Shown here in pieces: positions 30,291 to 45,876 of a DNA stretch of 64,000 bases; position 1 is the first letter of the stretch, and each line of letters starts with the position of its first letter. Origin of the DNA: Thiobacillus denitrificans. Its GTDB lineage: Bacteria; Pseudomonadota; Gammaproteobacteria; Burkholderiales; Thiobacillaceae. Both the position numbers and the translations under genes were made by a program. The notes below the pieces were generated by a model. That model saw only the letters and a list, made by a program, of their open reading frames with translations, did no database searches and was not told where the DNA came from. The DNA lies in assembly GCA_020723405.1 (NCBI GenBank), contig DYIY01000004.1, positions 1 to 64,000 of the forward strand, written 5' to 3'.

Positions 30291-33200
30291 ATGCAGGAAG
30301 CCCTATTCCAGGAACTCGCCGAGCAAGCCATCTCCACGGAAGTGCTGCTGGAGAAATACGCCAAGGGCGAGGAGCGCAACGTCACCGACGTACGCCTGCG
30401 GGTGGCCCGGGCCCTGGCCATGGCCGAGCGGAAAAACGAACGGGCCCACTGGGAGCGCCTGTTCTTCCAGGCCATGGAAGAAGGTTTCATCCCCGCCGGG
30501 CGCATCAACTCCGCCGCCGGCACCGAATTGCAGGCCACCCTCATCAACTGCTTCGTGCAGCCCGTGGGGGATGCCATCTCCGGGGAAAGCGACGGCAAGC
30601 CGGGCATCTACGTGGCCCTGGAGGAAGCCGCCGAAACCATGCGCCGGGGCGGTGGCGTGGGCTACGACTTCTCCACCATCCGCCCCAAGGGCGCCCTGGT
30701 GAAAGGCACCCAGTCCCGGGCCAGCGGCCCCGTCTCGTATATGCGGGTGTTCGACCGCTCCTGCGAAACCGTGGAATCCGCCGGCTCCCGGCGGGGGGCC
30801 CAGATGGGGGTGCTGCGCTGCGACCATCCGGACATCGAGGCCTTCATCCACGCCAAGGACAGCGGCGACCTGAAGAACTTCAACATCTCCGTGGGCGTCA
30901 GCGACAGTTTCATGCAGGCCGTGGAAGCTGACGGGGACGTGGAACTCATCCACAAGGCCGCCCCCGGGGCCGAACAGATGGCCGACGGCGCCTACCAGCG
31001 GGGCGACGGCATCTGGGTCTACCGCAAGCTCAAGGCCCGGGCCCTGTGGGACCAGATCATGCAGTCCACCTACGACCACGCCGAACCCGGCGTGCTGTTC
31101 CTGGACCGCATCAACCGGGACAACAACCTGTCCTACTGCGAGACCATCGAGGCCACCAACCCCTGTGTGACTGCCGATACCCGACTGGCCACCCAGCACG
31201 GCCTGGTGCCCATCGGCGAGCTTTACGGGAGCGGCCTGCCCCTGGAGGTGACCGTGGATAACCGGGCCCTGGGCCAGGAAGGCCGCGCCACCGCCATCCG
31301 CCCGGCCAAGCCCGCCTTCATGACCGCCCGGATGGCCGAAGTGTTCCGGGTGGTCAGTGTGGATGGCTATGAGATCAAGGCCACCGCCTGGCACGACTTC
31401 TACACCGCCCGGGGCAAGATCAAGCTGTCCGAACTGCGCCCGGGCGACGAACTGCTGGTGCAATCCGGCAAGGGCCAGTTCGGCAGCCAAGGCAACGAAG
31501 CCCTGGGGGTGCTGCTGGGCCTCATCACCGGCGACGGTCATTTCACCCACCGTGGCCAAGGCCAGGAAGCGGTCAGCATCAACCTCTGGCAGCAGGACCG
31601 GGGGTTGGCGGACCAGGTGGCCGCCACGGTCAACGCCATGATCGCCGGCCTGTCCGCCGCCCCCCGGGATTACCAGGTCGCCCCGGTGGCCGTACCCGAG
31701 CGCAATCTGGTCTTCATCCGCTCCGTGCTGCTGGCCCGTTCCCTGGCCATGCTCAACTTCACCCGGGCCACCAAGCTGCGGGTGCCGGAAGTGGTCTGGC
31801 GGGGCAGCGAAGCCTGCGTCAAAGGCTACCTGCGCGCCCTGTTCCAGACGGATGGCACCGTCAACATCTCCAGCGCCAGCCAGAGCTGCTCGGTGCGCCT
31901 GAGTTCCAGCCACCCGGACCTGCTCAAGGACGTGCAGGTTCTCCTGGCCAACCTGGGCGTGTTCTGCCGCATCCGCCAGCGCCGGGCCGCCGGGGTCCGC
32001 AGGATGCCGGACGGCAAAGGCGGCAGCGGCGAGTACGCCCATCTGGCCCAGCATGAGCTGATCATCGACGGCGAGTCCCGGGAACAGTTCATGCAGGAAG
32101 TGGGCTTTCTGCTGGAACACAAGAACGCCAAGTACCAGGCCTGGGCCGCAGACAAGGTCTTGCGCAAGCACCAGCGCTTCACCACCCGGGTGGCCGAAAT
32201 CGTCCCCGCCGGCCGGGAAGCCGTGTTCGATACCACCCAGCCGGACCACAACACCGTCATCTTCAACGGCCTGGTCACCGGGCAGTGCGGCGAACAGCCC
32301 TTGCCGCCCTACGGCTGCTGCTGCCTGGGCTCGGTCAACCTGACCCGCTTCGTGCGTTCCCCCTTCGAGGCCGGCGCCGAGTTCGACTTCACCGGCTTCG
32401 CCAAGGTGGTGGCGGTGGCGGTGCGGGCCCTGGACAACGTGCTGGATCTCACCGCCTGGCCCCTGGAGAAGCAGCACAAGGAAGCCCAGTCCAAGCGCCG
32501 GGTGGGCCTGGGCTTCACCGGCCTGGGGGATGCCCTGGTCATGCTCGGCCTGCCCTATGACAGCCAGGAAGCCCGGGATTTCGCCGGCAAGGCCGCCGAG
32601 TTCATGCGCGACGAGGCCTACAAGGCCTCCGTGGATCTGGCCAAGGAACGGGACGCCTTCCCCCTGTTCAACGCCGACCTGTACCTGTCCGGCAACAACT
32701 TCGCCTCCCGCCTGCCCGCCGACCTGAAGGCCGACATCCGGGAACACGGCATCCGCAATTCCCACCTGCTGTCCATCGCCCCCACGGGCACCATCTCCCT
32801 GGCCTTCGCCGACAACGCCAGCAACGGCATCGAGCCGCCCTTCTCCTGGTACTACACGCGCAAGAAGCGCATGGCCGACGGGGGCACCAAGGACTACCAG
32901 GTGGAGGACCACGCCTACCGGCTGTTCCGCGAGCAGATGGGCGAAGAGGCCCCGCTGCCGCCGTCCTTCGTCACCGCATTGGAAATCTCCGCCCTGGCCC
33001 ACATGAACATGGTGGCCGTGGTGGCCCCCTTCGTGGACTCGGCCATCTCCAAGACGGTGAACGTGCCGGAGACCTACCCCTTCGGCGACTTCCAGGAGCT
33101 CTACACCGCCGCCTGGAAAGCCGGCCTCAAGGGCATCACCACCTACCGGCCCAACAACGTGCTGGGCAGCGTGTTGTCCGTGGAACCGGAAAAGGCCGCC

Positions 33201-34259
33201 CCCCAGGACTTCGCCACCGGCGACGTGAACCGGCGCATCGAGATCAAGACCCTGCCCGCCCCCGTGCTGGAAAGCCTCAAGTGGCCCGGCCGCCCCCGCC
33301 TGCCCGGCGGCAACCCGGCCTGGAGCTACATGATCGAATACCCTCAGGGCAGTTTCGCCCTGTTCGTGGGCCACATCGAGAACGAGGGCCGGGCCTTCCC
33401 CTTCGAGGTCTGGGTGAACGGCGCCGAGCAGCCCCGGGGCATCGGCGCCCTGGCCAAGAGCCTGTCCATGGACATGCGCGCCAACGACCGGGCCTGGCTC
33501 AAGCTCAAGCTGGAATCCCTGGCCCGCACCCGGGGCGACGACGCCTGCGCCATCCCCTTCCCTCCCGACGGCGAACCCCGCCAGATGCCCAGCATGGTGG
33601 CGGCCATGGCCCAGATCGTCCTGTGGCGCCTGGAACAGTTGCACGCCCTGGACGTGGATGCGCCCAGCCCCCTCATGGACGCTCTATTCAGCCATAAGGA
33701 GCCCAAGACCGGCACCGACGGCACCCTGTCCTGGACCGTGGACGTGCTCAACCCGGCTTCCGGCGACGACTTCGTCCTGGGCCTGAAGGAAATCACCCTG
33801 CCCGACGGCGTCACCCGCCCCTACTCGGTGTGGCTGTCCGGCGAATATCCCCGGGCCCTGGACGGCCTGTGCAAGATGCTCTCCCTGGACATGCGGGTGC
33901 TGGACCCGGCCTGGATCGGCATGAAGCTGCGCAAGCTGGTGGACTACCCGGAACCCCTGGGGGACTTCATGGCCAAGGTCCCCGGCTCGGAAAAGAGCCA
34001 GACCTGGCCCTCCACCGTGGCCTACGTGGCCCGCCTCATCCTCCACCGCTTTGCCATGCTGGGCCTGCTCACCGAGGACGGCCAACCCATCGTGCAGATG
34101 GGCATGCTCCAGGAACCCGCCGCCGCCCCTACCGGCCAGGCCGCCCCCCTGCCCGCCTTCAAGGGCAAGCGCTGCAAGGAATGCGGCAACGACACGGTGA
34201 TCCGCAAGGACGGCTGCGATTTCTGTACGGCCTGCGGGGCGGTGGGGGCGTGCGGATGA
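30291..34259 (+). CDS. nrdJ: Adenosylcobalamin-dependent ribonucleotide reductase (class II) with intein
   Basis: NrdJ reduces ribonucleotides to deoxyribonucleotides with vitamin B12 coenzyme and works with or without oxygen. The precursor is 1322 residues; removal of the intein at 292-665 leaves about 948. The extein shows the substrate-site and radical-site signatures, including [14 protein letters not shown] joined to [10 protein letters not shown], and [12 protein letters not shown]. The C-terminal third holds two similar blocks (about residues 980-1130 and 1140-1255) of the TSCPD type, and it ends with the zinc-ribbon-like CKECGN...CDFCTACG segment. AGGAG lies 9 bases before the ATG. 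Tandem NrdR boxes sit upstream. Confidence 0.95.
31164..32285 (+). mobile_element. Intein with LAGLIDADG homing endonuclease in NrdJ
   Basis: This in-frame 374-residue intein interrupts the NP|CGEQ active-site segment of NrdJ. It starts with Cys1 (CVTADTRLA, block A), has the block B threonine/histidine pair in [10 protein letters not shown], then two LAGLIDADG-type helices with their acidic residues, GLITGDGHF and [12 protein letters not shown]. Blocks F and G are present as [19 protein letters not shown], and the last residue is Gln instead of the usual Asn, followed by Cys+1. Both endonuclease motifs look intact, so homing may still be possible. The penultimate residue is Gly where most inteins have His. 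Confidence 0.93.
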
Positions 34260-34840: not shown

Positions 34841-35413
34841 ATGCGCAGCAAACTGCTTTTCGCCCTGGCAGCCCTGGGGTGCCTTGCCCAGCCGGCCCTG
34901 GCCGGTCCCACCGAAGATCTGGCCCGCACCTGCAACGCCTGCCACGGCGTCAACGGGGTGTCCGTGGGCCCGTCCATGCCCAGCATCGGCGGCCTGCCCG
35001 AGGCCCACCTGAAGAACGTGATGCTCCAGTGGAAGACCGATGAGCGCTACTCCGCCACCATGGGCCGCCACTTCAAGGGCTACACCGAAGCGGAACTGAG
35101 CGCCTTGGCGACCTACTACGCCAAGATGCCCTGGGTGCCCGTGGTGCAGAAGGCGGACGACAAGGTCGTGGCCCAGGGCAAGGGCGCCACCGAGCGTTGC
35201 GAGACCTGCCACGGTGCCACCGGCGGCCAGCCGGACGACGACGAGACGCCGCGGCTCAACGGCCAGTGGGCGAAGTACATGGAAATGGAGCTCATGAAGT
35301 ACCGCACCGAGTCGGTGAAGATGCCCCACAAGAAGATGCGCGGCAACGCGAAGAAACTGGCCGACGAGGATGTGCCCGCCTCTGCCCAGTTCTACGCCGC
35401 CCAGCCCAAGTAA
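34841..35413 (+). CDS. fccA: Flavocytochrome c sulfide dehydrogenase, diheme cytochrome subunit
   Basis: This periplasmic c4-like diheme cytochrome would take electrons from the flavin subunit FccB during sulfide oxidation. The 190-residue precursor has a Sec signal (cleavage after PALA at about 21) and two heme-binding sites, CNACH at 31-35 and CETCH at 120-124, in two similar halves. AAGGAGGAG precedes the ATG. fccB starts 9 bp downstream, an arrangement typical of fccAB. Other diheme c4 cytochromes look similar, but the partner gene supports this call. Confidence 0.88.
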   Translation: MRSKLLFALAALGCLAQPALAGPTEDLARTCNACHGVNGVSVGPSMPSIGGLPEAHLKNVMLQWKTDERYSATMGRHFKGYTEAELSALATYYAKMPWVPVVQKADDKVVAQGKGATERCETCHGATGGQPDDDETPRLNGQWAKYMEMELMKYRTESVKMPHKKMRGNAKKLADEDVPASAQFYAAQPK

Positions 35414-35422
35414 GGAGAGATC

Positions 35423-36739
35423 ATGAGTTTCAATCGTCGTGAATTCTTGAAGACCCTGACCAGCACCACGGTGGTCGTCCCCCTCTACGCCTGCGCGGCA
35501 CCTGGCGGCGGCAAGGGCGGCAAGGCCCGTGTCGTGGTGGTGGGTGGCGGGTTCGGCGGCGCCACTGCCGCCAAGTACCTGAAGATGATGGACGGCAGCC
35601 TGGACGTGACCCTGGTGGAGCGCAACAAGACCTTCGTCTCCTGCCCCCTGTCCAACGAAGTCATCAGCGGCCACGGCAAGTTCGAGGACCTGCAGGCCGG
35701 CTACGACGGTCTGATGAAGCGGGGCGTCAACGTGGTGTTCGACGACGCCACCGCCGTGGATCCGGCCGGCAAGGCGGTCAAGCTGAAGAGCGGCAAGACC
35801 CTGAAGTACGATTTCCTGGTGCTGTCCCCCGGCATCGACTTCAACTACGGCGGCGTGGCCGGCTACAGCGAGGAACTGGCCAACACCACCCATCCCCACG
35901 CCTACAAGGCCGGCCCCCAGACCCTGGCCCTGAAGAAGCAGGTGGAAAGCATGCAGGACGGCCAGGTGTTCGTCCTCAGCGTGCCCCCCGGCCCCTTCCG
36001 CTGCCCCCCCGGCCCCTACGAGCGGGCCTCTCAGATCGCCAGCTACTTCAAGCACCACGGCAAGGGCAAGTGCAAGATCCTCATCGCCGACAGCAACGAC
36101 TCCTTCTCCAAGAAGGGGCTCTTCGAGCAGGCCTGGAAGATGCACTACCCGGGCATGATCGAGTGGGTGGCCGGCGCCGCCGGCGGCAAGGTGGTGAAGT
36201 TCGACGCCAAGACCAACACCGCCTCCAGCGACTTCAACGACTTCAAGGGCGACGTGGTCAACATCATCCCGCCCCACCACGCCGGCCACATCGCCAAGAA
36301 CACCGGGCTGACCAACGACAAGGGCTGGTGCACGGTGGACATGCTGACCATGGAATCCACCGTCCACAAGGACATCTTCGTGGTGGGCGACTCCACGGTG
36401 CACGGCGATCTGCCGGTCTATGGCGCCCCCAAGTCCGCCCACATGGCCAACACCCAGGCCAAGGTGGCGGTGGGCAACATCCTGGCCAAGATCAACGGCA
36501 CCCCCTCCCCCGAACCCTTCTTCGTCAACACCTGCTACAGCATCGCGGAAAAGGACTGGGGCTTCTCGGTGGTGCACATCTACCGGGCCAAGGACGGCAA
36601 GCTGGTCTACGACCAGAAGGCCGGCGGCATCAGCCCGGTGACCATGGCCGACGACACCCAGCTCAAGCTGCAACGCAAGCTGGAATCCGAATACTGCATC
36701 GGCTGGTTCAAGAACATCATGGCGGATGCCTTCGCCTGA
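35423..36739 (+). CDS. fccB: Flavocytochrome c sulfide dehydrogenase, flavin subunit
   Basis: FccB oxidises sulfide (to sulfur or polysulfide) in the periplasm using covalently bound FAD. The 438-residue precursor has a twin-arginine export signal (NRREFLKTL) and then the FAD-binding RVVVVGGGFGGATAA. Cys74 in FVSCPLSNEVISG is in the place of the cysteine that holds FAD covalently. Cys194 in FRCPPGPYERA and Cys371 in VNTCYSIAEKDWG have the spacing of the redox-active disulfide of the family, by comparison with known FccB. It follows fccA by 9 bp. With an octaheme reductase downstream the electrons may have an unusual destination. Confidence 0.92.
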   Translation: MSFNRREFLKTLTSTTVVVPLYACAAPGGGKGGKARVVVVGGGFGGATAAKYLKMMDGSLDVTLVERNKTFVSCPLSNEVISGHGKFEDLQAGYDGLMKRGVNVVFDDATAVDPAGKAVKLKSGKTLKYDFLVLSPGIDFNYGGVAGYSEELANTTHPHAYKAGPQTLALKKQVESMQDGQVFVLSVPPGPFRCPPGPYERASQIASYFKHHGKGKCKILIADSNDSFSKKGLFEQAWKMHYPGMIEWVAGAAGGKVVKFDAKTNTASSDFNDFKGDVVNIIPPHHAGHIAKNTGLTNDKGWCTVDMLTMESTVHKDIFVVGDSTVHGDLPVYGAPKSAHMANTQAKVAVGNILAKINGTPSPEPFFVNTCYSIAEKDWGFSVVHIYRAKDGKLVYDQKAGGISPVTMADDTQLKLQRKLESEYCIGWFKNIMADAFA

Positions 36740-36779
36740 TTTGCAGGAAGCTGACTTAACTTGGCGGTAAAGGAGGCTT

Positions 36780-36838
36780 ATGAACGACGCGCGCGACTGT
36801 ACCGACGTTTGACAGACCCGGTGGGCCCGCGTGTCGTT
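36780..36838 (+). promoter_or_regulatory. Leader with mini-ORF and long-range hairpin between fccB and the octaheme gene
   Basis: After AAAGGAGG a ten-codon frame (ATG at 36780, stop ending at 36812) begins, though the 3-base spacing is short. The segment AACGACGCGCG (36783-36793) can pair with CGCGTGTCGTT (36828-36838), enclosing most of that frame. The structure could influence expression of the octaheme cytochrome gene, which has its own AAGGAG further on. Function is inferred only. Confidence 0.3.
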
Positions 36839-36885
36839 CGCAAGACATGGGCCGCCAGATCAAGAAACCCTTAAGGAGATCGACC

Positions 36886-38634
36886 ATGAGTAAATCGAGC
36901 ATGTTGAGCCGAATGGCGTCGGGCCTGGCCGCCGCGCTGTTCGCCTTCGCTGCCCAGGCGACGGTGGACATCCCCCGGCCCCAGATTCCGCCGGCGGACG
37001 CCACACCCAAGGCCGCCATCGTGCCGCCGGTGGAAGCCAAGAAGTGTTATTCCTGCCACGAGGACATCGAGGACTTCCACACCAAGGGCCGGCATGCCGC
37101 CGTGAACTGCGTGCAGTGCCACGACAACGCCAAGGACCACCTGGCCACCGCCAAGAACAAGGACATGGGCACGCGGCCCAACACCAACAAGGACCACCGC
37201 GCCTGTGCCACATGCCACGTGGAGCAGTACAACTCCTTCGTGCAGTCCAACACGGACTCCAAGGCCCGGGTGGAGAAGGCCAGCTTCAAATCCCGTTCGC
37301 CCCTGTTCGACAAATTGATGGAAGGCTACGGCTTCACCAAGGAGCACAACGAGCCCCGCTCCCACGCCTTCATGCTGGTTGACCAATGGGTGGTGGACCG
37401 GGCCTTCGGCGGCCGCATGCAGTTCAAGGACTGGACCTACATCAACAAGGCCGAACTGGCCGCCAACGGCGCCTGGAACGTGATCGTCGACAAGGAGCCC
37501 TCGTCCAACGACCAGAAGCCCTTTATGCGCCAGGTGGCCACCGCCGTGAACCCGGTGTGCATGAACTGCAAGACCCAGGACCACATCCTGGATTGGAAGT
37601 TCATGGGCGACAAGGACCCCCGCGCCAAATGGGACCGCACCTCCAAGCCGGTGGAGTTCGCCCGGGGCGTGAACCATCCCCTGAACTGCTACATGTGTCA
37701 TGACCCCCACTCCGCCGCGCCTCGCGTGGTGCGTGACGCCCTCATCCAGGCCGTGGTGGATCGCGGTGAAGGCACCTACCCCCTGGACCCGGTGAAGAGC
37801 AAGCAGTCCACCATGACCAAGGTCACCTTCCAGCGGGACGGCAAGGACTTCCGTGCCATCGGCCTGTTGTCCAAGTCCGACTCCAACCTGATGTGCGCCC
37901 AGTGCCACGTGGAATACAACTGCGGCCCCGGCTTCGACTGCGCCGGCCCGGACGGCAAGGTGCTGATGAGCCCCATGCCCGACCAGAAGTATCTGTCCAT
38001 GGCTGACCCCCGCACCAACCTGTTCACCTGGACCAACGTGTTCGGCTACAAGGACAAGATGGTGGGCCAGTACAAGTTCAAGGACTTCAAGCATGCCTCC
38101 ACCGGTGCCCTGCTGCCCAAGATCCAGCACCCGGAAATGGAAACCTACTGGGGTTCCAAGCACGAGAAGGCCGGCGTGGAGTGCAAGGACTGCCACATGA
38201 CCAAGAAGCGCGCCCCCAACGGCAAGGTCACCACCAGCCACCTGCAGATCTCCCCGCGCTACAACGTCAAGGGTGCCTGCCTGACCTGCCACAAGGAGTG
38301 GAACGAGGAAGAGGCCAAGTACCACATGGAGTCCGTGCAGAACTACATCCGCGGCAAGATGACCAAGGCTGAATTCTGGATCGCCGAGTTCATCGACTGG
38401 ATCAACAAGGCCAAGGAAGCCGGCGTGGCCAAGGAGACCCTGGAAAAGGCCTACGACATGCAGTACGACGCCAACCTGTACTGGGAATGGTGGACCGCCG
38501 AGAACTCCGACGGCTTCCACAACCCGGATGCGGCCCGCGAATCCCTGACCCGCTCCATCGACGCCTCCCAGGCCGGCATCAAGATGCTGAAGGAGGAACT
38601 GGCGAAGATGAAGACGGCCAGCGCCGCCAAGTAA
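36886..38634 (+). CDS. Octaheme c-type nitrite reductase-like cytochrome
   Basis: This periplasmic octaheme cytochrome is probably an ammonia-forming nitrite reductase of the ONR/TvNiR type, which can also reduce sulfite. The 582-residue precursor has a Sec signal (to about residue 25) and eight heme sites: CxxCH at 54, 75, 107, 268, 337, 433 and 465, and a CxxCK (CMNCK) at 225-229 as the fourth. A Lys-ligated fourth heme marks the catalytic heme of octaheme nitrite reductases and rules against hydroxylamine oxidoreductase. After heme 6 comes HVEYNCG; Tyr344 and Cys346 match the Tyr-x-Cys pair that is cross-linked in TvNiR. His415 in QHPEME is a candidate catalytic His. It starts 146 bp after fccB with AAGGAG upstream. 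Substrate is inferred, not shown. Confidence 0.88.
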
Positions 38635-38652
38635 GCCTCTGACCCTGCACCA

Positions 38653-38682
38653 GGGCCGGCCTTCGGGTCGGCCCTTTTTTAT
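38653..38682 (+). terminator. Rho-independent terminator after octaheme cytochrome
   Basis: GGGCCGGCC and GGTCGGCCC pair around a TTCG tetraloop and are followed directly by six T, 16 bp after the stop codon. It separates the fcc/octaheme genes from the ccm operon. Confidence 0.9.
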
Positions 38683-38791: not shown

Positions 38792-39448
38792 ATGAGCGAA
38801 CCCAGCCCCCAACTCAGCGTCCACGACCTTGCCTGCGCCCGCGGCGATCGCCTGCTGTTCAAGGGCATGGAGTTCAGCCTCGGCCCGGGCGAACTGCTGC
38901 TGGTCCAGGGCGGCAACGGCCAGGGCAAGACCAGCCTCTTGCGCCTACTCACCGGCCTGGCCCGGCCCGAGGCCGGCGAGATCCGCTGGCGCGGCGCCCC
39001 CATCCACAAGACCCGGGAGGCCTACCACGCCGAAATGCTCTACCTGGGCCACGCCAACGGCGTGAAGGACGACCTGAACCCGGTGGAGAACCTGCGCTTC
39101 GCCGAGGGCCTGCAAGGGCGGGCCTTCGAAGAGGAACGGGCGGTGGGCCTGCTCACCCGCCTGGGCCTGGAGCGCTGCCTGGACCTGCCCTGCCGGGTGC
39201 TGTCCTTCGGCCAGCGGCGGCGGGTGGCCCTGTCCGCCCTGCTCCTGGCCGACGCCCGGCTGTGGATCCTGGACGAGCCTCTCACCGGCCTGGACGTCCA
39301 CGCCGTGGCCCTCATGGAAGGCCTGATCCGCGACCATCTGAACGGCGGCGGCCTGGCCGTGGCCACCACCCACCAGGCCCTCAACCTGGAAGGGGTGAAG
39401 GTGCAGCGTCTGCTGGTGGGCAACGTGGCCATTCCGGAGCTGGCGTGA
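38792..39448 (+). CDS. ccmA: Heme exporter ATP-binding protein CcmA
   Basis: CcmA is the ATPase of the CcmABCD complex that releases holo-CcmE during cytochrome c maturation. The 218-residue protein has Walker A GGNGQGKTS (40-48), the ABC signature LSFGQ, Walker B LWILDEP and the switch histidine in ATTHQ. It is the first gene of a complete ccmABCDEFGHI set. An insertion-like palindromic element separates it from ccmB by 160 bp, which is unusual because ccmA and ccmB normally adjoin. Confidence 0.95.
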   Translation: MSEPSPQLSVHDLACARGDRLLFKGMEFSLGPGELLLVQGGNGQGKTSLLRLLTGLARPEAGEIRWRGAPIHKTREAYHAEMLYLGHANGVKDDLNPVENLRFAEGLQGRAFEEERAVGLLTRLGLERCLDLPCRVLSFGQRRRVALSALLLADARLWILDEPLTGLDVHAVALMEGLIRDHLNGGGLAVATTHQALNLEGVKVQRLLVGNVAIPELA

Positions 39449-39475
39449 TGGCTTCCAGGCAACGCGTGAGCCTTT

Positions 39476-39572
39476 CCCCCCTTTGCAAAAGGGGGGGTGG
39501 GGGGATTTCTCCGACGCTGGCGGAAAGGATGAGGCTCGTAATCCCCCCCAGCCCCCCTTTGCAAAAGGGGGG
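39476..39572. repeat. 97-bp palindromic (MITE/REP-like) element between ccmA and ccmB
   Basis: Two nearly perfect inverted arms of 32-33 bp (39476-39507 and 39540-39572) flank a 32-bp centre. Each arm is itself close to a palindrome, CCCCCCTTTGCAAAAGGGGGG, so the element can fold in several ways. It carries no gene. Such C/G-run palindromes scattered in betaproteobacterial genomes are probably mobilised or spread in trans; copy number here cannot be judged. It may act as a partial terminator or RNA-stability element inside the ccm transcript. Confidence 0.85.
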
Positions 39573-39608
39573 AGCACGGCGATGGGCAGGCCATGGGGGT
39601 CCTCTTCC

Positions 39609-40277
39609 ATGACCCGCTTCCTGCTCGCCGTCCTGCGCCGGGATCTCACCCTGGCGGCCCGCCGCCGGGGGGACTGGCTCATCGCCCAGTTCTTCTTCGT
39701 CATGGTGGCCAGCCTGTTCCCCCTGGGGGTGGGGCCCGAGCCCCAGATGCTGGCCCGCATCGGTCCCGGCGTGCTGTGGGTGGCGGCCACCCTGGCCTCC
39801 CTGCTGTCCCTGGCCCGGCTGTTCTCCGACGACCACCAGGACGGCAGCCTGGAGCACATGGTCCTGTCCCCGGAACCCACGGTGTTGCTGGTGCTGGGCA
39901 AGTCCCTGGCCCACTGGCTGATCTACGGCATCCCGCTGCTGGCCATCGCCCCGGTGCTGGGCCTTCAGTTCAATTTAAGCTGGGAGGCCATCATGGTGCT
40001 GGAGTTCTCCCTGCTGCTGGGCACCCCCATCCTGTCCCTGCTCGGCGCGGTGGGCGCCGCACTGACCCTGGGCCTGCGCGGCGGCGGCGTGCTGTTGACG
40101 CTGCTCATCCTGCCCCTGTACGTTCCCGCCCTGATTTTCGGCGCCGGTGCGGTCGATGGGGTGATTGCGGGAACCGGCGCCCAGGCTCACCTGTCATTGC
40201 TGGGCGCGTTCCTCATCCTGTCCCTTATGATCGCGCCCTGGATCGCCGCGGCGTCGCTACGAGTCTCCCTGGAATGA
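39609..40277 (+). CDS. ccmB: Heme exporter membrane protein CcmB
   Basis: CcmB is the membrane subunit that pairs with CcmA in the CcmABCD complex. The 222-residue protein has six hydrophobic segments and the family stretch FSDDHQDGSLEHMVLSP after the second. The ATG at 39609 gives the expected MTRFLLAVLRRDL start; longer in-frame openings run through the palindromic element and are rejected. Its stop overlaps the ccmC start (ATGA). Confidence 0.95.
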   Translation: MTRFLLAVLRRDLTLAARRRGDWLIAQFFFVMVASLFPLGVGPEPQMLARIGPGVLWVAATLASLLSLARLFSDDHQDGSLEHMVLSPEPTVLLVLGKSLAHWLIYGIPLLAIAPVLGLQFNLSWEAIMVLEFSLLLGTPILSLLGAVGAALTLGLRGGGVLLTLLILPLYVPALIFGAGAVDGVIAGTGAQAHLSLLGAFLILSLMIAPWIAAASLRVSLE

Positions 40278-41002
40278 ACCTCTACCACTACGCATCCCCC
40301 GTCACCTTCTACCACCTGGCCGGCAAGCTGATCCCCTGGTTCGCCTGGAGTGCCGGCCTGTGCACCCTGGCGGGCCTGTACATCAGCTTCTTCGTGGCCC
40401 CCACCGACTTCCAGCAGGGGGAGGCCTACCGGATCATCTTCATCCACGTGCCGGCGGCCTGGATGTCCATGTTCATCTATCTGATCATGGCGTTCTGGGG
40501 GGCCATCGGCCTGGCCTTCAACACCCGCATGTCCTTCATGATGGCCCGGGCCCTGGCCCCCACCGGCGCCCTGTTCACCTTCATCGCCCTGTGGACCGGC
40601 GCCTGGTGGGGCAAGCCCATGTGGGGCGCCTGGTGGGTGTGGGACGCCCGGCTCACCTCGGAACTGATCCTGCTCTTCCTCTACGTGGGCATCATCGCCC
40701 TGTGGGCGGCCATCGACGACGTGCGCCGGGGCGACCGGGCCGGGGCCCTGCTCACCCTGATCGGCGCCATCAACGTGCCCATCATCTATTTCTCGGTGAA
40801 ATGGTGGAACACCCTGCACCAGGGCGCGTCCATCAAGCCCAGCGGTACCAGCATGGATGACGCCATGCTGCAGGGCATGCTGATCATGGCTTTCGCCTCC
40901 TGGTTCTACACCATCGCCGTGGCCCTTTACCGGGTGCGCGGCCTGATCCTGGAACGGGAACGGCAAGCCGAGTGGGTCAAGGCGATTCTGGAGCGGGACT
41001 GA
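40274..41002 (+). CDS. ccmC: Heme-handling protein CcmC
   Basis: CcmC attaches heme to the chaperone CcmE at the periplasmic face. The 242-residue protein has six membrane segments and the tryptophan-rich WWD motif GAWWVWDARLTSELILLFLY, flanked by conserved His residues (IHVPAAW and NTLHQGAS). It overlaps ccmB by 4 bp and is followed by ccmD after 2 bp. Confidence 0.96.
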   Translation: MNLYHYASPVTFYHLAGKLIPWFAWSAGLCTLAGLYISFFVAPTDFQQGEAYRIIFIHVPAAWMSMFIYLIMAFWGAIGLAFNTRMSFMMARALAPTGALFTFIALWTGAWWGKPMWGAWWVWDARLTSELILLFLYVGIIALWAAIDDVRRGDRAGALLTLIGAINVPIIYFSVKWWNTLHQGASIKPSGTSMDDAMLQGMLIMAFASWFYTIAVALYRVRGLILERERQAEWVKAILERD

Positions 41003-41004
41003 AC

Positions 41005-41178
41005 ATGGAATGGGCAAGCTGGTCTGACTTCTGGGCCATGGGCGGCTATGGCTTCTACGTGTGGGGTTCCTTCGGCGCCACCGCCGCCGCCCTGTTGATC
41101 GAAATCATTTTGCTCCGGCGCGGCGACGCGGATACTCGCCGCCGCCTGCGCCGCATGCAGCAATGGGAAAACCAATGA
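41005..41178 (+). CDS. ccmD: Heme exporter small protein CcmD
   Basis: CcmD is a small membrane protein that helps release holo-CcmE from CcmABC. The 57-residue product has one membrane segment (about 14-38) and the [15 protein letters not shown] start typical of CcmD, then a basic cytoplasmic tail. It lies 2 bp after ccmC and overlaps ccmE by 4 bp. Confidence 0.93.
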
Positions 41179-41621
41179 AATCGCGCCACAAGAAACTGCT
41201 GGTCATCGTCCTGGGCCTGGCCGGCATCGGCATTGCCGCCGCCCTGATCCTCAACGCCTTCCAGAGCAACCTGGTGTTCTTCTTCTCCCCCAGCCAGGTG
41301 GCCCAGGGGGAAGCCCCCACCGACCGGGCCTTCCGCATCGGCGGCCTGGTGGAAAGCGGCAGCGTGCAACGGGATCCGGACGGCCTCACGGTCCGTTTCG
41401 TGGTCACCGACACGGCCAAGACCATTCCCGTCACCTACAAGGGCATCCTTCCCGACCTGTTCAAGGAGGGCAAGGGGGTGGTGGCCGAGGGCAGGCTGGC
41501 GGCCGACGGTCAGTTCACGGCCAGCCAGGTCCTGGCCAAGCACGACGAGAACTACATGCCGCCGGAAGCCGCCCATGCCCTGGAACAGGCGGCCAAGGCC
41601 CAGCAGACCCTGGCGAAATAA
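41175..41621 (+). CDS. ccmE: Cytochrome c-type biogenesis protein CcmE
   Basis: CcmE is the periplasmic heme chaperone that binds heme covalently through one histidine and passes it to CcmF. The 148-residue protein has an N-terminal membrane anchor (8-28), an OB-fold body and the heme site [10 protein letters not shown] with His123 and Tyr127. The ATG at 41175 overlaps the ccmD stop. Confidence 0.96.
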
Positions 41622-41667
41622 TGATTCCGCCGGGCCAGGCCCGGCGGCTTGAAAGGATGGAGCACCC

Positions 41668-43629
41668 ATGATCCCCGAACTCGGCCATTTCGCCCTCATC
41701 ATCGCCCTGCTGCTGGCCATCACCCAGGCCATCCTGCCCCTGCTGGGGGCCCAGCGCGGCAACCTGACCCTCATGGCGGTGGCCCGTCCCGCCGCCCAGG
41801 GGCAATTCCTCTTCCTGGTTCTGGCCTTCGGCTGCCTGGCCTGGTCCTTCCTGGTGAACGACTTCACCGTGGAAAACGTGGCGCGCAATTCCTTCTCCCA
41901 ACTGCCCGAGGTCTATCGCTTCACCGCCACCTGGGGCTCCCACGAGGGCTCCATGCTGCTGTGGGTGCTCATGCTGGCCTTCTGGTCCACGGCGGTGTCG
42001 GTGTTCTCCCGCCACCTGCCCGACGACATGGTGGCCCGGGTCATCGGCGTCATGGGCCTCATCTCCATCGGCTTCATCGCCTTCCTGCTCACCACCTCGA
42101 ATCCCTTCGACCGGCTGATCCCCGGGGCCCCGGATGGCCGCGACATGAACCCCCTGCTCCAGGACTGGGGCATGATCATCCACCCACCCATGCTCTACAT
42201 GGGCTACGTGGGCTTCGCCGTGGCCTTCGCCTTCGCCATCGCCGCCCTCATCTCCGGCCGCCTGGACGCCGCCTGGGCCCGCTGGTCCCGGCCCTGGACC
42301 ACGGTGGCCTGGGCCTTCCTCACCGCCGGCATCGTCCTGGGGGCCTGGTGGGCCTACCGGGAACTGGGCTGGGGCGGCTGGTGGTTCTGGGATCCCACGG
42401 AAAACGCCTCCTTCATGCCCTGGCTGGCCGGCACCGCCCTGATCCATTCCCTGGCGGTCACCGAAAAACGGGGCGCCTTCAAGGCCTGGACCGTGCTGCT
42501 GGCCCTCACCGCCTTCTCCCTCTCCCTGCTGGGCACCTTCCTGGTCCGCTCCGGGGTGCTCTCCTCGGTCCACGCCTTCGCCACCGACCCGGCCCGGGGC
42601 GCGTTCATCCTGGGCTTCCTGGCGGTGGTCATCGGCGGTTCCCTCACCCTGTTCGCCTGGCGGGCGCCGCGCATGCTCACCGGCGGCGCCTTCACCTGGG
42701 TCTCCCGGGAGGCCATGTTGCTGGCCAACAACGTGATCCTGCTGGCGGCCATGGGCTCCGTGCTGCTGGGCACCCTCTACCCCCTGCTCATGGATGCCCT
42801 GGGCATGGGCAAGATCTCCGTCGGGCCACCCTACTTCAACGCGGTGTTCGTGCCCCTCATGGCCCCGGCCCTGTTCCTCATGGGCATCGGCCCCCTGGCC
42901 CGCTGGAAGGAGGCCGGCCTGCCCGACCTGATGGGCCGCCTCAAATGGGCCCTGGCGGTGGCCGTCGCCACCGGCTTCGCCCTGCCCATGACCCTGGACG
43001 GCTTCAATCCCTGGGCCAGCCTGGGCTTTTTCCTCTCGGTATGGATCATCCTCACCATCGCCATCGGCTTCCGTGAACGGCTCAAGCACGGCGGCCGCCT
43101 GTCCGCCCTGCCCCGGGCCTTCTGGGGCATGCAACTGGCCCACTTCGGCCTGGCCTGGGGCATCGCCGGCATCACCCTGGTGGCCAACTACCAGGAGGAG
43201 CGGGACGTGCGCATGAACGTGGGCGACCACACCACCCTGGCCGGCTACACCTTCACCTTCCAGGGCACCACCGAGCAACCCGGCCCCAACTACCGGGCCG
43301 CCCGGGGCACGGTCGAGGTCAGCAAGGACGGCAGGAAGCTGTTCACCCTCCACCCCGAGAAGCGCATCTACAACGCCTCCGGCATGCCCATGACCGAAGC
43401 CGCCATCGACCCGGATTTCTTCCGCGACGTCTACGTGGCCCTGGGCGAGCCCCTGGATGACAGCCTCAACACCTGGGCCGTGCGGGTGTTCCACAAGCCC
43501 TTCATCAACTGGCTGTGGCTGGGCGCGGTATTGATGGTCATCGGCGGCTTCCTGGCCGCCTCGGATCGCCGCTACCGCATCGCCGTGAAGGCCACCGTGC
43601 CGGCCGGCGCGGCCGCCCAGGGAGCCTGA
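41668..43629 (+). CDS. ccmF: Heme lyase CcmF
   Basis: CcmF is the large membrane subunit of the heme lyase that joins heme to the CxxCH cysteines of apocytochromes. The 653-residue protein has about 15 membrane segments, the WWD motif GWGGWWFWDPTENASFMPWL and conserved His residues on both sides. The eight-heme cytochrome upstream, with one CxxCK site, would be a demanding client; no dedicated CcmF/NrfE-type second lyase lies in this window. Confidence 0.97.
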   Translation: MIPELGHFALIIALLLAITQAILPLLGAQRGNLTLMAVARPAAQGQFLFLVLAFGCLAWSFLVNDFTVENVARNSFSQLPEVYRFTATWGSHEGSMLLWVLMLAFWSTAVSVFSRHLPDDMVARVIGVMGLISIGFIAFLLTTSNPFDRLIPGAPDGRDMNPLLQDWGMIIHPPMLYMGYVGFAVAFAFAIAALISGRLDAAWARWSRPWTTVAWAFLTAGIVLGAWWAYRELGWGGWWFWDPTENASFMPWLAGTALIHSLAVTEKRGAFKAWTVLLALTAFSLSLLGTFLVRSGVLSSVHAFATDPARGAFILGFLAVVIGGSLTLFAWRAPRMLTGGAFTWVSREAMLLANNVILLAAMGSVLLGTLYPLLMDALGMGKISVGPPYFNAVFVPLMAPALFLMGIGPLARWKEAGLPDLMGRLKWALAVAVATGFALPMTLDGFNPWASLGFFLSVWIILTIAIGFRERLKHGGRLSALPRAFWGMQLAHFGLAWGIAGITLVANYQEERDVRMNVGDHTTLAGYTFTFQGTTEQPGPNYRAARGTVEVSKDGRKLFTLHPEKRIYNASGMPMTEAAIDPDFFRDVYVALGEPLDDSLNTWAVRVFHKPFINWLWLGAVLMVIGGFLAASDRRYRIAVKATVPAGAAAQGA

Positions 43630-43631
43630 CC

Positions 43632-44156
43632 ATGAAACGCTGGTTGCCCCTCGTCATCTTCCTGGTCCTGGTGGGCTTTTTCGCCAAGGGCCTGTTCCTC
43701 AACCCCCGGGAAGTGCCATCACCCTTCATCGGCAAGCCGGCCCCCGCCTTCACCCTGCCCGTGGTGGGCGATGCCGGCGGCCGAACCTTCAGCCCCGCCG
43801 AGATGAAGGGCAAGGTCTGGCTGCTCAACGTCTGGGCCCCCTGGTGCGTGTCCTGCCGCCAGGAACACCCGGTGCTCATGGAACTGGCGCAAAGCCAGCC
43901 GGTGCCCATCGTCGGCCTCAACTGGAAGGACAAGGACCGGGAAGCCGCCCAGTTGCTGGCCCAGCAGGGCAGCCCCTACGTCGCCGTGCCCGACGACCTG
44001 TCCGGCAAGGTGGGCATCGACTACGGCGTCACCGGCACCCCGGAGACCTATCTCATCGACCGGGACGGCATCGTCCGTCTGAAGCACGTGGGCCCCATCA
44101 GCCCGGAAGTGTGGAAGGACAAGATCGAACCCAAACTGAAGGAGCTGGGCGCATGA
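43632..44156 (+). CDS. ccmG: Thiol:disulfide interchange protein CcmG/DsbE
   Basis: CcmG is a membrane-anchored thioredoxin-like protein that keeps apocytochrome heme-site cysteines reduced. The 174-residue protein has one anchor (5-22) and the active site WAPWCVSC with Cys72 and Cys75; the cis-proline region GTPETYLID follows. Reducing power probably comes from the DsbD encoded at 53788. It lies 2 bp after ccmF and overlaps ccmH by 4 bp. Confidence 0.96.
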   Translation: MKRWLPLVIFLVLVGFFAKGLFLNPREVPSPFIGKPAPAFTLPVVGDAGGRTFSPAEMKGKVWLLNVWAPWCVSCRQEHPVLMELAQSQPVPIVGLNWKDKDREAAQLLAQQGSPYVAVPDDLSGKVGIDYGVTGTPETYLIDRDGIVRLKHVGPISPEVWKDKIEPKLKELGA

Positions 44157-44608
44157 AATCCCTGCTGTTGAGCCTGGGCCTGCTGCTGGCCCCGCCCCTG
44201 TGGGCCGCCGAAGCCGTGCCGGTGGGGGAGGACCCCGTCATCGAACAGCGCATGGTCAAGCTGGCTGAGGATCTGCGCTGCCTGGTCTGCCAGAACGAAT
44301 CCCTGGCCGGTTCCCACGCCGAACTGGCCGAAGACCTGCGCCGGGAGATCCGCACCCAGATGAAGGCGGGCAAGAACGACAAGGAAGTGGTGGACTACCT
44401 GACGGAACGCTACGGCGACTTCGTCCTCTACCGCCCCCCCTTCAAACCCGTCACCTATCTGCTCTGGCTGGGCCCCCTGCTGTTCCTGGGCCTGGGTGGG
44501 GCCATCTGGTACGTCACTCTGAAGAAACGCCGCGCCATGGCGCCAACGCCCCCGGTGGACGAGAAGCAGCTCGCCGCCGCCGCCCAACTCCTGGATGAGA
44601 ACAAATGA
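44153..44608 (+). CDS. ccmH: Cytochrome c-type biogenesis protein CcmH
   Basis: CcmH is the thiol-redox subunit of the heme lyase complex. The 151-residue precursor has a signal peptide (to about 19), the active site LRCLVCQNES with Cys43 and Cys46 and a membrane anchor at about 103-122. It is the short form lacking the TPR part, which is supplied by the separate ccmI that overlaps it by 4 bp. Confidence 0.96.
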   Translation: MKSLLLSLGLLLAPPLWAAEAVPVGEDPVIEQRMVKLAEDLRCLVCQNESLAGSHAELAEDLRREIRTQMKAGKNDKEVVDYLTERYGDFVLYRPPFKPVTYLLWLGPLLFLGLGGAIWYVTLKKRRAMAPTPPVDEKQLAAAAQLLDENK

Positions 44609-45876
44609 ATCCCTTCTGGTCCGTCACCGCTTTCTGGATCGCCGCCGTGGCCTGCGTGGCCGTAGCCCTCGCCTTCGTCCTGCCCCCGCTGCTGCGGCGC
44701 CGGGACGCCGCCGCCAAGGCGGCCCGCCGGGACATCAACATCGCCGTCTATCGTGACCAGATGAAGGAGATGGAAGCCGACCGGGCCAACGGCCTGCTGT
44801 CCGACGACCAGTTCCAGACCGCCAAATTGGAACTGGAGGCCCGGCTGGCGGAGGATGCCCTGGCCCAGGCCGACGCCGCCATGACTCCCAAGGCCAGCCG
44901 GCGCCTGGGCTTCACCCTGGCCGGCGTACTGCCGGCCGCAGCCTTCGGCCTCTATTTCGTGCTCGGCAACCCGCTGTCACTCACCGCCATCGCCGAAGCC
45001 CAGGCCAACCCGACCCAGGCCGGCGCCGCCCAGGGCGAGCATGACATCATGAAGATGATCCAGCAGGTGGAGGAACGCACCAAGAGCCACCCAGAAGACG
45101 TGGAAGCCTGGACCATGCTGGCCAAGACCTACGCCGTGGTGGGCCACTGGCCGGAGGCCTTGTCCGCCTACGAGAAGGCCTACAAGCTGAAACCCGATCT
45201 GCCCGCCATCATGACCGGTTATGCCGAGGCCCTGGCCATCGCCAACAACCGGGTGCTCAAGGGCAAGCCCATCGGACTCATCCTCCAGGCCCTGGAAAAG
45301 GATCCCAATGACATGAAGGGCCTGGAACTGGCCGGCATCTACAACTTCCAGGAAAAGAACTACGCCCAGGCGGCCTTCTACTTCAAGCACCTGCACAAAC
45401 TGCTGCCCCCCGAATCCCCCTACGCCCAGGACATCCAGGAGGCCCAGAAGGAAGCCACCCGCATGGCCCGGGGCGGTGGCGCGGAAGCACTGGACAACCT
45501 GTCCGATCCCAAGGCCGGCCAGGCCGCCGCCCCCGGCGCCACGGTCCAGGGCACGGTGGACATCGCCCCGGCCCTCAAGGCCAAGGTGGGCGCCCAGGAC
45601 GCCATCTTCCTGTTTGCCCGTGCAGCCGGCGCCGGCGCCCCCGTGGCCGCCGTGCGGGCCAGCGGCAGCCAGTTCCCCATCGCCTTCGAGTTGTCCGACG
45701 CCATGGCCATGAACCCGGACAACAAACTGTCCAACTTCAAGGAAGTGAACCTCACCGTGCGGGTCTCCAAATCGGGCGACCCCATGGGTGCCAGCGGCGA
45801 CCTGGAAGGCACGGTGCAAAACGTGAAGGTGGGGGCCAAGGACGTGAAACTGGTCATCGACCGGGTCAAACCCTGA
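44605..45876 (+). CDS. ccmI: Cytochrome c-type biogenesis protein CcmI
   Basis: CcmI delivers apocytochromes to the heme lyase. The 423-residue protein has two N-terminal membrane segments (about 6-28 and 98-116) around a cytoplasmic leucine-zipper-like loop, then periplasmic TPR repeats (about 150-280, for example PEALSAYEKAYKLKPDLPAI) and a C-terminal beta domain (about 305-423). It closes the ccm operon; a terminator follows. Confidence 0.93.
   Translation: MNPFWSVTAFWIAAVACVAVALAFVLPPLLRRRDAAAKAARRDINIAVYRDQMKEMEADRANGLLSDDQFQTAKLELEARLAEDALAQADAAMTPKASRRLGFTLAGVLPAAAFGLYFVLGNPLSLTAIAEAQANPTQAGAAQGEHDIMKMIQQVEERTKSHPEDVEAWTMLAKTYAVVGHWPEALSAYEKAYKLKPDLPAIMTGYAEALAIANNRVLKGKPIGLILQALEKDPNDMKGLELAGIYNFQEKNYAQAAFYFKHLHKLLPPESPYAQDIQEAQKEATRMARGGGAEALDNLSDPKAGQAAAPGATVQGTVDIAPALKAKVGAQDAIFLFARAAGAGAPVAAVRASGSQFPIAFELSDAMAMNPDNKLSNFKEVNLTVRVSKSGDPMGASGDLEGTVQNVKVGAKDVKLVIDRVKP

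Follow-up and report, generated by a model that had tools for sequence, protein, structure and literature searches.

Can a flavocytochrome c sulfide dehydrogenase (FCSD, subunits FccA and FccB) be the electron donor of an octaheme nitrite reductase (ONR)? This question is raised by a locus of Thiobacillus denitrificans (GCA_020723405.1, contig DYIY01000004.1), in which the genes fccA, fccB and onr follow each other on the plus strand from 34841 to 38634. The whole stretch of DNA analysed, positions 1 to 64,000 of the forward strand of this contig, is called the window below. An earlier note on it had described fccA, fccB and an eight-heme cytochrome with CxxCK as the fourth heme motif lying together, which we confirmed, and had proposed that they could carry out a sulfide-driven nitrite ammonification. 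Judged from the sequence, we consider fccAB-onr a transcription unit for sulfide-fed nitrite ammonification in the periplasm, with a probability of roughly 0.6.

Identity of the three gene products

The fccA gene (34841 to 35413, plus strand) encodes a diheme cytochrome c subunit of 190 aa with two CxxCH motifs and, by eye, a signal peptide; the product matched the Pfam family Cytochrom_C with 34.6 bits against a cut-off of 21.3. After a gap of 9 nt follows fccB (35423 to 36739, plus strand), encoding the FCSD flavoprotein of 438 aa, whose N-terminal NRREFLK we take to be a Tat-like signal. FccB matched FCSD_central with 149 bits (cut-off 27) and FCSD-flav_bind with 61 bits (cut-off 26), and the closest solved structures were the FCSD flavin subunits 5n1t (367 bits) and 1fcd (362 bits). 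Through alignment with three solved FCSD flavin subunits (359-367 bits), Cys74, Cys194 and Cys371 of the window FccB were placed at Cys42, Cys161 and Cys337 of the Allochromatium enzyme. The accessible part of PMC3504083 assigns roles in FCSD to the FAD cysteine and to a redox cysteine pair; the covalent-FAD cysteine, the redox pair and an adjoining gene for a diheme subunit were all found here. In these features and in the Tat-like signal, the pair is like FccAB of Allochromatium and Thioalkalivibrio paradoxus, but the clade of the window FccB is separate from them, is distinguished by nine positions and is tied to reductase genes.

The onr gene (36886 to 38634, plus strand) was listed as an open reading frame (ORF) from 36847, which is probably too early; the ATG at 36886 fits better, with AAGGAGA upstream and a product of 582 aa. 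Its heme motifs are, in order, CYSCH, CVQCH, CATCH, CMNCK, CYMCH, CAQCH, CKDCH and CLTCH. The closest solved structure was 2zo5, the eight-heme nitrite reductase of Thioalkalivibrio (TvNiR), with 713 bits and E 2e-213 over 527 residues, and the protein also scored above the cut-off of Pfam Cytochrom_C552. Arg185, Lys242, Tyr357, Cys359, Gln427 and His428 (numbered from 36847) were invariant in ten aligned sequences including the window's; we take the matching TvNiR residues to be Arg131, Lys188, Tyr303, Cys305, Gln360 and His361, in agreement with the printed alignment. The ONR thus shares with TvNiR the active-site Tyr, Arg and Cys, including the tyrosine-cysteine pair, and the CxxCK as fourth of eight motifs. 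Seven CxxCH and one CxxCK, the latter fourth, is also how ONR is defined in the accessible parts of PMC5433712 and PMC10716430. Unlike TvNiR, for which the parts of the sources at hand named no physiological partner, the window ONR shares its unit with FccAB. By these matches, the window genes are those of FccA, FccB and a TvNiR-type ONR.

Conserved neighbourhood and predicted transcription unit

ONR was present in 36 of 117 genomes of the window's family, belonging to 9 of 12 genera. In the fetched family neighbourhoods the order fccA-fccB-ONR recurs, usually with ccmABC next. A synteny search for fccB beside octaheme CxxCK cytochromes, proposed in the earlier note, found the neighbourhood conserved: of the 27 family loci that extend at least 1500 nt upstream of ONR, 26 had the fccB end no more than 600 nt before it, versus 2 of 37 loci outside the family (80 loci were kept out of 293 relatives found). 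The exception within the family, L086, has a 5-kb gap; the two outside loci are L107 and L109, and L132 has fccBA divergent to ONR. For 32 named loci "family" is our own assignment, by at least 64% identity and contigs shared with the family ONR search. L075 and L103 belong to these 32, lying too near contig ends for the 27, and in L066, on the same contig as L103, the FccB end was legible before ONR. The records holding the family loci are titled as Thiobacillus, Hydrogenophilales, Sulfuricella, Gallionellaceae, Tepidiphilus and others. Because the same gene order keeps returning throughout the family, chance adjacency of fccAB and ONR was ruled out. The block fccAB-ONR-ccm was also seen in L100, a contig of a metagenome-assembled genome (MAG) titled Bordetella parapertussis, probably a mislabel.

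An intrinsic terminator was found after onr at 38652 to 38681 on the plus strand (38652-38675 plus a T run), with a 10-pair stem including 8 G-C pairs. It was the strongest of seven terminator-like sites in the window region, where shuffles expect 4.4. Between the fccB stop and the ONR start with its ribosome site, no terminator-like site was detected in any of 28 loci, window included. Within 150 nt after ONR, a terminator was found in 23 of the 26 loci with a readable ONR end; L039, L053 and L055 had no site, and L068 and L069, in which ONR is broken off or interrupted, were left out. Base-shuffled sequences gave 0.00 loci in the gap and 0.04 loci after ONR. Since the shuffled short gap expects none either, it is the contrast with the stretch after ONR that counts. 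The promoter scan gave zero sites anywhere in the region, so it was uninformative on transcription.

Downstream, the genes ccmA-B-C-E-F-G-H-I for cytochrome c maturation occupy 38792 to 45876 on the plus strand. With a terminator after ONR and none between fccB and ONR, the predicted unit is fccAB-ONR, and ccm is a neighbour, not a member; ccmA-I is probably on a separate transcript. A single operon fccAB-ONR-ccm was set aside because of the terminator between ONR and ccm; the full ccm set is not supported as part of the unit, also because fccAB adjoins ccmA in three genomes without ONR there.

The gap between fccB and onr carries a 10-codon ORF (36780 to 36812, plus strand) with a strong ribosome site, AAAGGAGG, ahead of it. 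An ORF of 10 or 11 codons with a strong ribosome site was found in this gap in 15 of 28 ONR-linked rows, the window included. As to the other 13 rows, L050 and L051 have unlike ORFs (21 and 9 codons), L061-L064 have ORFs of 18-20 codons further on, and the scan found none in the rest. Among 14 aligned sequences the start and the stop were kept, there was one in-frame 3-nt insertion, and the stops counted by eye were TAA 7, TAG 5 and TGA 2. That relatives use different stop codons and yet retain the start and the stop favours translation, and the short ORF is probably translated. It was found after fccB in 0 of 19 rows in which NapA, a molybdoenzyme, a pentaheme protein, OmcA/MtrC or ccm only lies downstream (12 nonaheme rows, with the partner on the other side, stand outside this control), and of the two HAO-type loci one has a 9-codon analogue. 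An inverted repeat at 36820 to 36856 on the plus strand, GGTGGGCCC / GGGCCGCC, follows the short ORF ahead of onr and may form a hairpin, with weak support. Over the whole gap the consensus structure, likewise weak, had 10 consensus pairs, 3 of them with change on both sides, and the z-score was -1.2; the best Rfam match in the gap (E 0.46) was below cut-off, so no known RNA family was assigned.

Upstream of the block, the window contains a ribonucleotide reductase gene (30291-34259) with an intein-like insert that, judged by eye, spans roughly residues 292 to 666. No match to it was found upstream of fccA in the fetched neighbourhoods of relatives.

One FccB clade beside different partners

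The FccB tree contained 97 rows, drawn from 80 stretches (chosen by score, ccmA closeness, own genome and ccmA controls) and 36 around ONR matches; rows shorter than 230 aa were removed, as was one duplicate (L262). It is a sample and not a census, and one of its sources gave part of its matches. A branch with 100% SH-aLRT set 66 of the rows on one side. By partner, these 66 were ONR 28, ONR at 5 kb 1, nonaheme 12, NapA 5, pentaheme 5, molybdoenzyme 4, ccm only 3, HAO-type 2, OmcA/MtrC 1 and other 5. The last five comprise L192, whose stretch contains a decaheme protein and part of a NapA, L208 and L232, which end at contig edges, and L219 and L230 with no partner. By a heme-count test, a multiheme or molybdoenzyme partner lay at most three genes away from 56 of the 66 clade FccBs and from 0 of 31 other FccBs; for loci not fetched for ONR the counts were 28 of 37 and 0 of 31. 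The partner names were taken from the same loci, and the heme-count test leans on them less. A weak 28% NapA match at the non-clade locus L264 failed this test. The FAD cysteine was present in 65 of 66 clade rows, the remaining one being gapped there, and both cysteines of the pair were present in all 66.

The partners are diverse. NapA scored 1320 bits (cut-off 904), and OmcA/MtrC 464 bits (cut-off 209) with a DmsE-type decaheme alongside. The molybdoenzyme, accompanied by an FeS subunit, falls between PhsA and ArrA, below both curated cut-offs. The nonaheme protein has about 650 residues and a weak, below-cut-off cytochrome b561 match; the pentaheme protein has about 500 aa and a below-cut-off ExtKL match, and its assignment as NrfA was unsupported by Pfam, NCBIfam and PDB. 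In G033 and G038 a different octaheme occupies the ONR slot before ccmA, related to the HAO family and to 4qo5 (G038 protein E 4e-45); 4qo5, in PDB titled hypothetical multiheme protein, is presumably IhOCC. This HAO-type octaheme sits exactly between fccB and ccmA at L188 4326-5654 and L189 4696-6159, in two genomes. Secreted-looking proteins of about 240 aa, alike by eye, were seen upstream of fccAB-napA at L211 5782-7984 and L209 2104-2823.

The genome of the window itself carries three clade FccB copies, beside ONR (C13), the molybdoenzyme (C34) and the nonaheme protein (C36); at least eight FccB homologues were present at E 1e-60, three of them of this clade. A single origin of the ONR-linked FccBs was rejected (p-AU 0.00017), with the grouping of 29 ONR rows costing 1366 log units, and the starred branches force at least 10 changes of the ONR label. 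The nonaheme rows and the pentaheme rows each formed one clade. In G038 the FccBs beside the HAO-type protein and beside OmcA/MtrC are identical and on one contig, and sister FccBs with different partners were found in G015 (ONR; pentaheme-NapA) and G073 (ONR; molybdoenzyme). Identical or sister FccBs with different partners in one genome indicate that the two genes are duplicated inside genomes and swapped at a fixed locus. Pairwise distances correlated with r 0.79 for FccA-FccB and for ONR-CcmA, 0.72 for FccA-ONR and 0.51 for FccB-CcmA.

An order-wide FccB search at E 1e-120 hit 9 of 399 genomes, three of them outside the family. G299 has a nonaheme gene and then fccB; in G263 the molybdoenzyme and the FeS protein are followed by one ORF and then fccAB, an order shared by G136, where fccA was not called. 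In a tree of simpler model than the 97-row tree, the FccBs of G263, G136, L132 and L109 grouped with the non-clade FccBs, and those of L107 and G299 fell inside the clade. Partner-adjoining FccBs thus stand both in and outside the clade, therefore the pairing arose more than once.

This exchange of partners suggests that the FccAB clade is a plug-in module, an interchangeable part feeding electrons from sulfide to periplasmic reductases. The earlier note had missed that the window FccAB is one of a family of such modules.

Proposed electron transfer, alternatives and meaning

In the mechanism that we propose, FccB would oxidise sulfide to S0 or polysulfide on FAD and the Cys194/Cys371 pair; the electrons would pass through the two FccA hemes to ONR, directly or via a small cytochrome c, and ONR would reduce nitrite to ammonium at the CxxCK heme. 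The net reaction would be 3 HS- + NO2- + 5 H+ -> 3 S0 + NH4+ + 2 H2O. FccAB would replace the quinol-linked donors of other nitrite ammonifiers, and in the family it would be an input module of general use, exchanged between several reductases.

The systems of NrfA with NrfH, NrfBCD or CymA are comparable in having the same reaction (in the window a predicted one), a homologous catalytic core and a donor encoded nearby. NrfA-NrfH systems have, in addition to the general heme lyase, a CcmF-type one dedicated to CxxCK; in the window's own genome a single ccmF was found (E 1e-5). No match to the NapC/NrfH family (PF03264) was found in this genome (99.3% complete) at E 0.001, with the E. coli control positive, and so the NapC/NrfH-type quinol dehydrogenase of such systems was not detected; a second PF02335 protein was not found in it either. 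The genome carries soxB and one above-cut-off NapA on another contig, and two dsrA above the curated cut-off were seen at C42:165274-166533 and C36:106511-107764. NrfA donors oxidise quinol, according to the accessible part of PMC12285233, whereas the neighbouring donor candidate of the window is a predicted sulfide oxidiser.

Sulfide-driven nitrite ammonification, as put forward in the earlier note, is thus strengthened by the family-wide neighbourhood, the terminator-free gap between fccB and ONR in the 28 loci, the kept active-site residues and the lack of a NapC/NrfH match; a membership of the full ccm set in the unit is not supported.

Several observations weigh against this reading. Of the 37 ONR loci from outside the family, 35 lack a nearby upstream fccB, so ONR has no need of FccAB, and in G037 fccAB and ONR are 5 kb apart. 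FccB distances track ONR only in part (r 0.49, compared with the 0.72 for FccA-ONR). Ten of the 66 clade members are without a partner within three genes, five of these ten at stretch ends. Nine positions separate the clade from other FccBs, therefore its substrate could differ. Finally, G007, G008 and G009 have fccAB directly before ccmA and no ONR there, G007 and G008 carrying a divergent ONR elsewhere in the genome; closeness to ccm can therefore outlive ONR, which weakens any argument from ccm closeness.

Among the alternatives, co-regulation without direct wiring has a real but clearly smaller chance than the sulfide-fed unit. FccAB would then feed a cytochrome c pool and an oxidase, and quinol would feed ONR, for example via the nonaheme protein, and the genes would lie together because both serve sulfidic, oxygen-poor conditions. 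FCSD reduces soluble cytochromes c, which fits. The genome of the window has a nonaheme gene with the weak, below-cut-off b561 match (C36, L206), and in three Rhodocyclaceae MAGs (L119, L120 and L126) the gene directly before ONR encodes a nonaheme protein, 42-44% like that beside fccAB in the window's family. In the own genome, however, the nonaheme gene adjoins another fccAB and not ONR, no donor of the NapC/NrfH family was found, and the fact that a single FccB clade has changed its neighbours repeatedly suggests that these are direct partners, or nearly so. Going by the weak match, the Rhodocyclaceae nonaheme protein may have a membrane domain, which would suggest a quinol link; the donor encoded upstream of ONR would in that case be quinol-linked in these MAGs and sulfide-linked in the window's family, and it is plausible that FccAB and the nonaheme protein are both donors of ONR. 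In L120 and L126, a ccmF and ccmI-like genes of its own come after ONR and may provide a dedicated heme lyase; L119 ends after ONR.

It is improbable that fccAB and ONR lie near ccm merely through a shared need for heme attachment, with no functional link. Such a maturation island would account for fccAB directly before ccmA in the three genomes without ONR there and for ccm following the pair in most family loci. On the other hand, the terminator separates ONR from ccm, fccB and ONR stay together where ccm is absent next to them (L044, L045) or 8 kb off (L203), and no ccm genes were found in the stretches with fccAB beside NapA, the molybdoenzyme, OmcA/MtrC, the nonaheme or the pentaheme protein.

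Slightly less probable again is that the clade FccAB oxidises a substrate other than sulfide, or runs from cytochrome to polysulfide with some partners as electron sources. The nine clade-specific positions would fit this, and OmcA/MtrC-MtrA conduits can work both ways; but the FCSD cysteines are kept, and a donor is expected because NapA and ONR are physiological reductases.

The earlier note had offered a periplasmic sulfur cycle as its alternative. In it, ONR would reduce sulfite (or tetrathionate) toward sulfide, which FccAB would then oxidise again. In vitro, ONRs turn sulfite into sulfide, and a Beggiatoaceae octaheme termed ONR showed tetrathionate reductase activity, according to the accessible parts of PMC5433712 and PMC8840924, and of PMC6449678, respectively. 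The cycle has very little left in its favour because FccBs of this one clade also stand beside NapA, HAO-type and OmcA/MtrC proteins, and it would be futile as a respiration. MccA sulfite reductases are marked by a wide-spaced CX15-17CH heme motif, but this motif is absent from the window ONR, where all eight motifs are CxxCH or CxxCK; an MccA-type enzyme was rejected accordingly.

We found neither fccAB-ONR nor a plug-in FccAB clade described in the open-access literature, subscription journals being mostly outside its coverage, which agrees with the statement in the earlier note that it knew of no operon of this composition; no paper naming a donor for octaheme nitrite reductase was found in the same literature. 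As far as the accessible part of PMC5328954 goes, Thioalkalivibrio fccAB likewise adjoins another periplasmic redox enzyme, thiocyanate dehydrogenase, but this enzyme oxidises thiocyanate to the sulfur level and is not a terminal reductase. Desulfurivibrio alkaliphilus performs sulfide-driven nitrate ammonification, the same net reaction, but the accessible part of PMC5516251 describes no fcc-ONR block.

For the sulfide-fed unit, a detoxifying role in removing sulfide and nitrite, or redox balancing, is likely, since a wholly periplasmic reaction itself conserves no energy. In the widest form of the idea, to which we give somewhat less than even odds, the FccAB clade is a quinone-independent sulfide input of the periplasm, copied within a genome and set beside nitrite, nitrate, HAO-type, PhsA/ArrA-like molybdoenzyme and cell-surface decaheme outlets. 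One cell would then run several respirations on sulfide in parallel, every one of them served by a separate donor, and in the ONR branch a translated 10-codon leader would set the ONR output apart from that of FccAB.

With two conserved genes as a candidate donor, and no NapC/NrfH detected in the same genome, the question of the ONR donor becomes directly testable. If true, the plug-in FccAB would be a rule predicting which reductases of sulfur bacteria are run by sulfide, with nitrate, nitrite or extracellular acceptors, and it would bear on whether the nitrogen of sulfide-rich sites is retained as ammonium or escapes in gaseous form.

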